A stretch of DNA of 64,000 bases, taken from Methanoculleus horonobensis. Lineage in GTDB: Archaea > Halobacteriota > Methanomicrobia > Methanomicrobiales > Methanoculleaceae. The stretch lies in the NCBI RefSeq assembly GCF_001602375.1, contig NZ_BCNY01000015.1, positions 558,001 to 622,000 of the forward strand, written 5' to 3'. The notes below the pieces were generated by a model. That model ran no database searches, was not told the DNA's origin, and was given only the letters and a program-made list of their open reading frames with translations. Below, in pieces: positions 6,972 through 62,694 of the stretch; the stretch's first letter is position 1, and every line of letters starts with the position of its first letter. The position numbers and the translations under genes are program-made.

Positions 6972-7130
6972 ATGGATTCATACCGCTGCACGCTGTGCGG
7001 CTACGTTTACAGTCCTGCTGTCGGCGATTTCGATCATGGCGTCAAGGCCGGAACGGCGTTTGAGGATCTGCCCGAGACCTGGAGATGCCCCCGGTGCGGT
7101 GCGCCGAAGAGCCGGTTTAAGAAGGTGTAA
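6972..7130 (+). CDS. Rubredoxin 1
   Basis: A 52-residue rubredoxin with one mononuclear Fe site: CTLCGY near residue 6 and CPRCGAPK near residue 39, plus the conserved aromatic core (YRC, WRCPRCG). It carries single electrons in the cytoplasm, in methanogens often to oxygen-detoxifying flavodiiron proteins or rubrerythrins. The frame could begin upstream at 6942, but the ATG at 6972 gives the standard length and follows a GGAGAGGTGA purine tract. The second rubredoxin at 7401 is a close paralogue with similar upstream sequence. Confidence 0.95.
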
Positions 7131-7400
7131 GGGAGAGCCGTTCTTGACCGGATTCCGGTCTTCTCTTCTGGCGATGTGCGCCGGTTGGCGCATTGCTCTC
7201 TCTTTGTTGCCTGAACCGGAACCTCCCGTGTCCCCCTCCGCGAATCTCCCGCCTCGAAGAGTTATTCGTCCATGACGGCCCTGCCGGCAGGAACTTCATC
7301 CCCCGATCTCCTGATCGGAGTACTTATCCCCACGGGGCTACATGGGTGCCGTGCCCCCATCGACGTTGCGGCCGGTCGGGGCGGTGAGGTGAAGGAGATG

Positions 7401-7559
7401 ATGGATTCATACCGGTGCGGACTCTGCGGCTATGTCTACAATCCCAGGGCCGGCGAGCCCGGCCAGGGGATCGAGGGCCGCACAGAGTTTGGAGACCTGC
7501 CCGAGAACTGGGCATGCTCCCGGTGCGGTGCGGAGAAGAACCTGTTTCGGAAGGCGTAA
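7401..7559 (+). CDS. Rubredoxin 2
   Basis: A 52-residue rubredoxin, paralogous to the one at 6972: identical MDSYRC start, CGLCGYVYNP and CSRCGAEK iron-binding pairs, and the same DLPE(N/T)W segment. Two adjacent ATGs exist (7398 and 7401); the second aligns with the first rubredoxin, and GAGGTGAAGGAG lies just upstream. The upstream regions are also alike, so this is a segmental duplication that copied promoter and gene. Roles may have diverged in electron partner or timing. Confidence 0.95.
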   Translation: MDSYRCGLCGYVYNPRAGEPGQGIEGRTEFGDLPENWACSRCGAEKNLFRKA

Positions 7560-7664
7560 GGGGCGGTTCGGGGCCGGCCTCCCCATAACACATCTTCTCT
7601 TTTAGGGGTGTGGTCGTACGAGAGCGTTATATGGCGTTCTATTCTCCCGGCCGCACAAACTTCC

Positions 7665-14558: not shown

Positions 14559-14784
14559 CGATATTCCCGGGTATCGCCACGCACTGCCCCCGCCCCCCGG
14601 GGCGGGGTGCGACGGACTGGACGTCCGGAGCTTTAGAAGACCAAAGGTCTTCGAGTGGGGGTTACAGGCGTATAGTTATCTGTAGAAATTGGTTCTGAAC
14701 GCTGAAGACACGAGGCAGAGACAGGGGAGGGGGCTCGCCCCCTCCCCGTCAGCCCCACCCCCGTGGCGATATCCACCACGGTCC
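14559..14784. repeat. MITE-like hairpin-rich repeat, copy A
   Basis: Non-coding element within the 435-base gap between mch and the ferredoxin gene. From left to right it holds a left end with TATCGCCAC (14572-14580), a C-rich/G-rich hairpin (14586-14607), a two-hairpin unit beginning GCGACG at 14609 with a perfect GAAGACC/GGTCTTC stem (14636-14652), the block GTGGGGGTTACAG, an 11-bp hairpin of G-runs and C-runs (14724-14747), and a right end starting GTGGCGATATCC at 14763. Copy B at 31057-31271 shares these blocks in the same order. The rest of the gap (to 14905) shows no gene. Confidence 0.75.
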
Positions 14785-30667: not shown

Positions 30668-30931
30668 ATGATGGAAGAGATCCTTGCCATCCTTCTCGCG
30701 GTCGCGATAGCCGCGACGCTCTACTACCTCATGAAGAAGGCCATGACGCTCGTCATCAACGCCGTCGCCGGGCTCATCACGCTATGGGCTCTGAATTACT
30801 TCGACGTCCTCAGCTGGTTCGGCGCTCCCGACATCCAGATCAACCTGGTGACGATCCTCATCTGCGCCCTCGCCGGGCTGCCGGGCGCCCTGGTTCTGGT
30901 CCTGCTTCACCTCGTCGGGATTGCAATCTGA
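30668..30931 (+). CDS. BofA-like small membrane protein
   Basis: An 87-residue protein with two or three hydrophobic segments and the pro-sigma-K processing inhibitor BofA family pattern: MKKAMTLVINAVAGLITLWALNY, then VTILICALAGLPGALVLVLLHL. In Bacillus, BofA restrains an intramembrane protease; the archaeal role is unknown. It starts right at the end of tldE (ATG at 30668 or 30671), so it belongs to the lonB-tldD-tldE proteolysis operon. Confidence 0.8.
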   Translation: MMEEILAILLAVAIAATLYYLMKKAMTLVINAVAGLITLWALNYFDVLSWFGAPDIQINLVTILICALAGLPGALVLVLLHLVGIAI

Positions 30932-31481
30932 GAGGGCACATTAGATGTTTTCCGGCCGACGGGGCGGCCGCGTCTCAATTTTTGGTCTATTACCGGACAG
31001 CTTCGTTATCCATCACAGCGAAAATAGTACCGAAGCGCTGGAAAGCCCCATACAGTGGACCGTGGTGGCAATCGCCACGCACTGCCCCCGCCCCGAGGGG
31101 CGGGGAACGACGCTCCGTTAGGAGCGGAGTTGAGGCACCACAGGTGCGGGTGAGGAGGCCGAAGGCCGGGAGGGGTGGGGGTTACAGCCTTATTTTCGGA
31201 GTGGGGACAGGGGAGGGGGGAGACCCCCTCCCCGTCAGCCCCACCCCCTGTGGCGATATCCCCTCGAAATCCGTGCCAGGGGTGCACTCTGAGGGCGTTC
31301 AAGCTTCTTCAGGCATAAGACTCCTATGGGAGCGAACCCCTCCGAATGTCTGAGGCTCCGAACGCTTGCATGATGCACCTCTCAAGTGCTCGAACTCAGG
31401 ATGTCCCCAGGACCCGCCCGCCCGCTCCCATGACGCACCCCGGCCGAAACCCTTATCCCCTGCCGCGAGCCTTCTCGAGCC
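30932..31481. other. 550-base gene-free region holding repeat copy B
   Basis: Between the bofA-like gene and the ferric-reductase-like gene. It holds the hairpin-rich element 31057-31271 and otherwise only short frames without family resemblance. A possible promoter for the gene at 31482 is AACCCTTATCC around 31448-31458. Confidence 0.5.
31057..31271. repeat. MITE-like hairpin-rich repeat, copy B
   Basis: Second copy of the element at 14559-14784, same orientation. Shared blocks: ATCGCCACGCACTG then the C-run/G-run hairpin (31083-31106), a two-hairpin unit with ACGACG at 31107 (stems CTCC/GGAG and CACC/GGTG), GTGGGGGTTACAG, the G-run/C-run hairpin (31209-31232) and the right end GTGGCGATATCC (31250-31261). 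The left end (31057-31078) matches the reverse complement of copy A's right end (14763-14784) at 20 of 22 bases, so the element has terminal inverted repeats. Confidence 0.75.
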
Positions 31482-32117
31482 GTGGCCCCGACGACCCGGG
31501 CGGGTGCGCTCTTTGCAGCCGTCATCCTGGCCCTGTATGCGCTTGTCGCCGCGGTGGTCCTGACCGAACCCGCGGACGACCCGTTCAACGTCATAGCGCG
31601 TCTTGCCGCCCTGTGGGGGTTCCTCGCCCTCGGCATCGCAACCCTTCTCACGCCGTTCCTCCGGGAGATCATGAAGATCTTCGGGAGATCGTTTCTCTCG
31701 GTGCACCACACCTTCGCCGCCGTCGGCCTCCTCCTTCCCACGCTGCACCCGGTGGTCATCGCCATAGGAGCGATGAACCCTGCCGTCTTCATCCCGATCT
31801 TCTCCCCGTGGGATCGGTTCTGGGCGCTCGCGGGCCGGCCCGCACTCTACCTCCTCTACATCGCGTTTGCCGGCGTGCTGCTCCGGAAGTACATCCCGAA
31901 GTACTGGCGGTGGGTGCACGGCCTGATGTATGCCGTGCTCCTCTTTGCCGTCGTCCACGGGAACCTGATCGGGACGGACTTTGAGAATCCTATCATATGG
32001 GTGCTCTTCAACACGCTCTTCGCTCTCACCGTCGCGGCATTCGTTCTCAAGCGCTGGCGGATGAGGCAGAAGAAGAGGGGGGCGGGTGGGAGCTCTGGTT
32101 CTACGGAGCGTCGCTGA
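31482..32117 (+). CDS. Ferric-reductase-like transmembrane protein
   Basis: A 211-residue membrane protein with about six helices. Paired histidines fit a ferric-reductase/cytochrome-b-like heme-binding domain: SVHHTFAAVGLLLPTLHPV in helices 3 and RWVHGLMYAVLLFAVVHGN in helix 5. No flavin or NAD domain is attached. The GTG at 31482 is the only start that keeps the first helix. The last residues (GGSSGSTERR) are encoded within a stretch resembling the hairpin repeat, so the original C-terminus may have been replaced. Redox partner unknown. Confidence 0.72.
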   Translation: MAPTTRAGALFAAVILALYALVAAVVLTEPADDPFNVIARLAALWGFLALGIATLLTPFLREIMKIFGRSFLSVHHTFAAVGLLLPTLHPVVIAIGAMNPAVFIPIFSPWDRFWALAGRPALYLLYIAFAGVLLRKYIPKYWRWVHGLMYAVLLFAVVHGNLIGTDFENPIIWVLFNTLFALTVAAFVLKRWRMRQKKRGAGGSSGSTERR

Positions 32118-32165
32118 TCGTGCCTGACGGAGTTTGAGCTCCGCCTGCCCTAGAGGGGCACGCGG

Positions 32166-32221
32166 CGCCATCGAAAATTGCTGCGCAATTTTCTCAAGCT
32201 CCGTTCCTGACGGAACGTCGC
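32166..32221 (-). repeat. Two-hairpin repeat unit (56 bases)
   Basis: On the minus strand the unit begins GCGACG, then a 6-bp hairpin CGTTCC/GGAACG (32202-32217), the linker GGAGCTTGAG, a perfect 9-bp hairpin GAAAATTGC/GCAATTTTC (32173-32193), and ends CGATGGCG. It has the same plan as the tandem units at 62570-62694, with different stem sequences. It lies between two convergent genes and could also act as a bidirectional terminator. Confidence 0.75.
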
Positions 32222-62569: not shown

Positions 62570-62694
62570 GCGACGGGCCGAAGGGCCGGAGCTCGAGAAA
62601 ACGCGAAGCGTTTTCGAGTGGCGACTTCCCCGTAGGGTGCGACGGGCCGAAGGGCCGGAGCTCGAGAAAACGCGAAGCGTTTTCGAGTGGCGAC
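62570..62694 (+). repeat. Tandem pair of identical 56-base two-hairpin units
   Basis: Units at 62570-62625 and 62639-62694 are identical, separated by 13 bases. Each begins GCGACG, has a GGCC/GGCC hairpin with loop GAAG, the linker GGAGCTCGAG, a perfect 8-bp hairpin GAAAACGC/GCGTTTTC with loop GAA, and ends CGAGTGGCGAC. The first unit starts right at the stop of the preceding gene. Same plan as the unit at 32166-32221. The rest of the gap to 62856 holds no gene. Confidence 0.85.

Follow-up and report, generated by a model that had tools for sequence, protein, structure and literature searches.

The closest analogues of the repeats described here are the double-hairpin elements (DHEs) of mitochondria and the REP sequences of bacteria. 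DHEs are known from the mitochondria of Allomyces (Paquin et al. 2000, via PMC2800124); they and the repetitive hairpin-forming elements of sponges resemble our units in being small, in occurring in many intergenic copies and in being present or absent between close relatives, and, as for the units, PMC2800124 reports no flanking duplications and names no mover. What marks a DHE in that account, a mobile piece made of two hairpins in a row, is found in the units as well, in their indels, in the slots that they fill and in their insertion into a gene; the likeness is one of plan only. The units differ in belonging to an archaeal chromosome, not to mitochondria, in their YGA/GAR tags and GNA/GNNA loops and in nesting in each other's loops, and whereas the sponge elements keep their stems and vary their loops, the Methanoculleus units do the opposite.

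The GTAG and CGTC REPs, BIMEs and REPINs are likewise short tagged palindromes in many copies, intergenic, clustered and mostly 3′ of genes, and the CGTC REPs share with the units the lack of a known transposase (PMC3733652, PMC3116915). The units depart from REPs in their YGA/GAR tag, in forming a head-to-tail doublet on one strand, in having no RAYT and in their many discrete stem types. There is no unpaired GTAG at the palindrome foot, as in a GTAG REP, the flanks being YGA...GAR and the linker GAGYTYGA, and the two hairpins are tagged in the same orientation, not inverted as in a REPIN or BIME. A CGTC REP has an unpaired CGTC at one end, a stem of 8–9 bp starting with A-T pairs and a CCA tail (PMC3733652); in the units the CG of GACG lies inside H1-type stems, the stems are of 5–8 bp and mostly start with C-G or G-C, and the flanks are again YGA/GAR. 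The REP surveys PMC3733652 and PMC12306157 do not name Methanoculleus; subscription literature lay mostly outside our search, and an earlier description is possible.

For Methanoculleus itself, recurrent potential G-quadruplex sequences (rPQS), with a CTGAC central loop, have been published (PMC8044849); about half lie between convergent genes, and a possible regulatory role has been proposed. In the available part of that paper the rPQS of the Methanomicrobiaceae cover just a G-rich/C-rich segment, and no mention was found there of the carrier ends or the double-hairpin units described below.

Double-Hairpin Units in the Window

The window, the whole 64,000-nucleotide stretch of Methanoculleus horonobensis DNA analyzed here, is part of a 2.45-Mb genome in 15 contigs (G000; other genomes are likewise given by our labels). 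A sequence-only reading had placed units of one plan at 62570, 62639, 32221, 14609 and 31107, and on inspection of the sequence all five are present. The copies at 62570 and 62639 are 100% identical (56 nt), an exact tandem duplication, so the five units yield only four different, independent stem combinations. That reading gave all of them a plan running from GCGACG to CGAgTGG, but the unit at 31107 begins AACGACG, and at its 3′ end CGGGTGAGG replaces CGAgTGG. The features are as follows (H1 and H2, first and second hairpin).

62570..62625 (+): double-hairpin unit 1 of the tandem pair, tag GCGA, tail GAGTG; H1 62574-62588, CGGGCC-GAA-GGGCCG, folding with one G.G mismatch; linker GAGCTCGA 62589-62596; H2 62597-62615, GAAAACGC-GAA-GCGTTTTC
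62626..62638 (+): spacer between the tandem units, TTCCCCGTAGGGT
62639..62694 (+): unit 2 of the tandem pair, identical copy; H1 62643-62657; linker 62658-62665; H2 62666-62684
32168..32221 (-): double-hairpin unit directly 3′ of the stop codon of a KaiC-like ATPase; H1 32217-32202, CGTTCC-GTCA-GGAACG; linker GAGCTTGA 32201-32194; H2 32193-32173, GAAAATTGC-GCA-GCAATTTTC
32118..32167 (-): additional hairpins of the 32221 array, CGTGCCCC...GGGCAGG and CTCCGTCAGGCACG, also between the convergent genes
14573..14770 (+): carrier repeat 1, MITE-like, ends ATCGCCA...TGGCGAT; holds a unit and a G-rich hairpin, AGGGGAGGGGG/CCCCCTCCCC
14608..14657 (+): double-hairpin unit within carrier repeat 1; H1 14613-14627, CGGAC-TGGAC-GTCCG; linker GAGCTTTA; H2 14636-14652, GAAGACC-AAA-GGTCTTC
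31071..31257 (+): carrier repeat 2, MITE-like, same ends; holds a unit with other stems
31105..31150 (+): double-hairpin unit within carrier repeat 2; H1 31111-31126, CGCTCC-GTTA-GGAGCG; linker GAGTTGAG; H2 31135-31147, GCACC-ACA-GGTGC

The units at 62570, 62639 and 32221 lie outside carrier repeats, those at 14609 and 31107 in the carrier slot. The first stem of unit 62570, a covariance-model match (G000:C15:620570, E 2.1e-8), can be read in two registers, as GGCC/GGCC with a GAAG loop or as CGG-G-CC GAA GG-G-CCG; the second matches the rest of the family and has one G.G mismatch, retained by the GGCC stem class at the fourth pair. Elsewhere in the window a 162-nt direct repeat (75% identical; 6972-7133 and 7401-7562), near small ORFs, is unrelated to the units.

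Each Hairpin Carries Its Own Tags

The unit, about 45–60 bp long, has two hairpins that point the same way, (AA/TG)CGA-[H1]-GAG-YT-YGA-[H2]-GAR. All perfect hairpins in some 150 loci were counted without presupposing a linker, and one flank pair dominated, YGA 5′ and GAR 3′ of the stem (CGA...GAG 213, TGA...GAG 80, TGA...GAA 43, CGA...GAA 35; the flat expectation for YGA/GAG is about 5). Since this pair dominates in a linker-free census, the linker GGAGYTYGAG amounts to two tags back to back: the "constant linker" first described is indeed a fixed sequence, but is more aptly understood as the tag that closes hairpin 1 on its 3′ side followed by the 5′ tag of hairpin 2. Each hairpin has the form YGA-[stem, GNA/GNNA loop]-GAR, and in our loci, which were partly collected with unit patterns, such tagged hairpins number 11–66 per 100 kb, compared with 0–3 per stretch in Markov-simulated sequence.

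Among 371 tagged hairpins, copies related by descent whose loop counts are therefore dependent, GNA triloops account for 181 (49%) against 3.2% in background hairpins; the tetraloops, mostly C-G closed, are GNYA in 81 cases and GNRA in 8, and an RNA-type preference for GNRA tetraloops was not found in this set. The tags set GA against GA, with Y facing R on the outer side, which is the context of tandem sheared G.A pairs, and the GA/GA flanks of the unit could, judging by their letters, supply such a tandem G.A step. The GNA and GNNA loops could have been inherited rather than selected. Mini-hairpins of the d(GCGAAGC) type are credited with exceptional stability as DNA (cited in PMC10527192).

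Stem Pairing and Covariation

The pattern CGACG-N8-28-GGAGYTNNAG has 77 matches in the genome, compared with 18 for a reversed control. To avoid selecting for pairing itself, we chose sequences by their linkers alone, taking every sequence with the flanks [AG]CGA-N6-N3-N6-GAGYTYGA in the Methanoculleus loci (113 distinct). At least five of the six Watson-Crick pairs form in 100 of these 113, with 16 different perfect arms, and changes on both sides occur in all six stem pairs. Paired cells make up 92.6% of this alignment and 67.6% of shuffles, cells changed on both sides number 135 against 37.5, and the covariation score, resting like the loop counts on copies dependent by descent, is 0.608, compared with 0.190 for shuffles and no more than 0.12 when the partner is slid by 1–3 columns. 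That the stems vary yet pair, and that the fold is what is kept, as the sequence-only reading had proposed from its five units, holds in sequences chosen without regard to pairing.

Copy Number and Phylogenetic Range

In this genome the covariance model matches at least 151 times, and 31 of 35 congeneric genomes have matches too, from 1 to at least about 150 per genome. Across 295 genomes of the phylum, matches outside the genus never exceeded one or two in a genome and were weak, at chance level, except in G319, from another family of the same order, where one match (L352, G319:C5:22905; E 1.1e-7) is a single true double-hairpin unit, possibly acquired by horizontal transfer. Pattern matches in named genomes also place the family in Methanoculleus, although in the initial pattern search of public genomes the GGCC register and chance GC-rich matches obscured the pairing of units. 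The few pattern matches in unrelated GC-rich bacteria have stems that do not pair, and two IMG/VR matches, considered as viral carriage, look like GC-rich coding chance and do not pair. A covariance search had been suggested as a check, with a lack of further intergenic copies or unpaired stems as the adverse result; it instead returned further copies, with pairing stems, across the genome and its congeners, and about 90% of tagged hairpins lie in intergenic sequence, which makes up 16.5% of the DNA (genes called by a home-made codon model).

Presence, Absence, and Nesting

Genomes were compared over stretches surrounding unit sites and over syntenic regions. Alignment of syntenic stretches from nine genomes gave clean unit-size indels between relatives of 38, 42, 45, 47, and 54 bp, all with two hairpins (the first stem is just 2–3 bp in the 38- and 42-bp indels), and one 58-bp indel with three. 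G031 has the 62570 site filled, with altered loops; in G003 and G015 the site is empty and shows the spacer-like sequence TTCCTCGTAGGGTGCGA; the G031 orthologue of the second unit (62639) has a different H2, CACC/GGTG. The 32221 site is empty in G032 and holds other stems in G015, G016, G017, and G010. The two-hairpin unit is a discrete piece, present, absent or exchanged at orthologous sites, and such empty and filled sites support the proposal of a mobile hairpin element.

Units also nest in other units: 9 to 10 cases lie within H1 arms or loops and 2 within an H2 loop, and one nested unit shows up as an empty versus a filled site when G020 and G031 are compared. A gene that its GSFxRGE...SDIDIL motif would identify as an MNT-type nucleotidyltransferase is uninterrupted in G012 and G030, whereas in G016 and G032 it contains a single unit that brings a stop codon; in this genome (C13:7762-8142 = L019 1380-1760) it contains the very unit seen in G016 and G032, with further units in its H1 loop and an in-frame stop at the insertion. 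All three states, empty, single and nested, are thus present at this gene, and an uninterrupted paralogue lies about 1.9 kb from the broken copy. Whole-unit tandem arrays of 6–10 copies, with periods of 44–68 bp, occur in G020. Intergenic DNA, the carrier slot, a coding gene and other units' loops have all received units, and units amplify in tandem as well; presence and absence are silent on the direction of change at each site, and some cases may be deletions or repeat recombination. In the complete genome G020, unit clusters look denser in the middle, at 1.0–1.75 Mb.

The Carrier Repeat

The carrier has an outer sequence of the ACAGTGGACCGTGGGGAT type, and its G-rich end has 58 matches in this genome. 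The slot, at the position after the first hairpin, measures 16–20 nt in empty copies and 58–76 nt in copies with one unit; a hand count from the list (n = 55, four mis-split rows excluded) gave 22 empty slots, 26 with one unit, 4 with two and 3 with more, in many stem combinations. At window position 14770, between GTGGCGATAT and CCACCACGG, G020, G030, G006, and G004 have a block of 533–627 bp that is absent in the window, a second carrier plus several units forming one clean indel. The G-rich end of the carrier in the window is identical with the published rPQS of Methanoculleus (PMC8044849). No autonomous parent of the carrier was present in the loci collected. The unit itself was rejected as a MITE, having neither terminal inverted repeats nor a target duplication; the inverted ends ATCGCCA belong to the carrier.

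In relatives, the loop of the first carrier hairpin is flipped (GCCCCCAAGGGGGC vs. GCCCCCTTGGGGGC; L240 vs. L242), a sign of inversion at hairpins. In several relatives (L282, L283, L284, L288, L289), another inverted repeat, CTCACGCGAAGCCGCGAAG...CTTCGCGGCTTCGCGTGAG, fills the intergenic region orthologous to window 30931-31482.

Junctions and Mode of Spread

Any target duplication at the junctions is at most about 3 nt long. Insertion sites read roughly GRR^GR and the unit 3′ end is GAR; because unit ends and targets share letters, the unit boundaries can be shifted by 1–5 nt. By their sequence, GRR^GR junctions without duplication would suit single-strand transfer.

We consider it probable, the mechanistic steps included, that the units form a family of small mobile DNA elements restricted to this genus, which we name Methanoculleus double-hairpin elements. 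That the unit is a mobile DNA hairpin is supported by the data above; that it folds as single-stranded DNA we infer from the DNA-stabilizing GNA/GNNA loops and the possible tandem G.A step of the flanking GA/GA, and it would act in that form, folded on one strand. It would be joined, without clear target duplication, just 3′ of a GRR resembling its own 3′ end GAR, either by a trans-acting enzyme (of no recognizable Y1/RAYT or RVT_1 type) or by template switching during replication. Perfect stems would result from hairpin arms being copied from each other by template switching, and the foldable copies would be those that spread.

An expansion that is passive throughout is conceivable, although we hold it to be doubtful: with no enzyme involved, template switching at hairpins, slippage and repeat recombination would copy units into GA-rich, tag-like sites and keep the stems perfect. 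Template switching has been put forward as a way in which perfect stems arise and are repaired (PMC8794818), and loop inversions (for six arms both a loop and its exact reverse complement occur; the shuffle mean is 2.7, with 34 of 2000) and stem exchanges, including whole-stem exchanges at one site, fit such a process; the tandem arrays, the entry of units into hairpin loops and tag-like sites and the searches that gave no enzyme point the same way. Complete units in a coding gene, however, are not easily explained by it, nor is a rise to about 150 copies in this genus only, with near-absence in other relatives of the order.

It is unlikely that the units are non-autonomous elements of a REP/RAYT kind, moved by a genus-encoded Y1 HUH transposase now lost from most genomes. 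The chemistry of IS200/IS605 elements, with hairpin tags and insertion without duplication, is comparable, and the one-strand hairpin recognition and duplication-free insertion of IS200/IS605 ends and single-stranded DNA hairpin elements would fit the unit junctions; the hairpins have short unpaired tags and loops of a single-stranded DNA type, insertion is 3′ of a GRR resembling the unit's own end, and Y1 genes are present in some congeners. Against this, no match to the Y1 transposase (PF01797) was obtained in this genome even at E ≤ 1, which also sets the units apart from RAYT systems, and no full-length IS200/IS605 element was found in it. Y1 exceeded the cut-off in 1 of 24 unit-rich but 5 of 11 unit-poor congeners (Fisher p 0.007, kinship uncorrected), and no gene family recurs beside the units (206 flanking proteins, largest group 3). 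The missing GTAG tag and the direct, not inverted, hairpin pairs argue in the same direction. The suggested REP-like membership, for which a Y1/REP-associated tyrosine transposase was to be sought, is thus not supported. Reverse transcriptase (RVT_1, PF00078) is absent from this genome and present in 3 of 35 congeners, and a retro-element moved by such an enzyme was rejected here. No strand or replication bias was seen in G020, a weak test given its flat skew.

Genomic Placement and the RNA Alternative

Tagged hairpins lie between convergent genes in 145 cases, between tandem genes in 130 and between divergent genes in 31 (10%); in tandem pairs 62 run with and 68 against the genes. Placement avoids promoters and ignores gene orientation overall. 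Units less than 30 nt from a stop codon are co-directional in 26 cases and opposite in 6, an imbalance that might point to a role as RNA for some of the sites. The idea that the units are an RNA module, namely transcribed 3′-UTR elements retained for the fold of the RNA (as terminators, processing sites or protein-binding sites), would accommodate this co-direction, the enrichment between convergent genes, the strong covariation and the stable predicted RNA folds, yet we judge it very improbable: orientation in tandem pairs is random, a tenth of the hairpins lie between divergent genes and some within genes, the sites differ between relatives, the loops are GNYA and not GNRA, and arrays and nested copies resemble insertions. 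Rfam returned only tRNAs at gathering score and, at E ≤ 1, no credible match over the units, so that a known structured RNA was rejected. The intergenic, promoter-avoiding and orientation-blind placement together with the GNYA tetraloops favours a mobile hairpin element at the DNA level over the RNA module, the two forms between which the sequence-only reading had left the choice.

That the units are merely internal hairpins of the MITE-like carrier, spreading with it, is most unlikely: many units do lie within carriers, unit and carrier counts correlate across genomes (Spearman 0.73) and the carrier-plus-units block at 14770 is a single indel, but the slot is empty in 22 of 55 carriers, three of the units in the window lie outside carriers, others lie inside a gene, and the distributions are independent (102 unit and 2 carrier matches in G013, 4 and 48 in G024), so that units and carrier are separate.

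Significance

A more specific form of the mobile-element reading can be put forward tentatively, in which the Methanoculleus double-hairpin elements are self-nesting, single-stranded DNA hairpin parasites with neither a known type of mobilizing enzyme nor an autonomous parent. Folding itself might then be the principle of replication, through stable DNA loops, G.A steps and template switching, or an undescribed archaeal enzyme might act on the loops.

The sequences published as "G-quadruplex repeats" from these methanogens turn out to be the ends of a MITE-like carrier in which the units reside. The units give the mitochondrial double-hairpin elements a counterpart in cells that can be cultured, and add a REP-like family without a RAYT. 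Close relatives show the empty, single and nested states next to each other, which makes the strand used, the position of the junctions and the acting enzyme accessible to direct tests.
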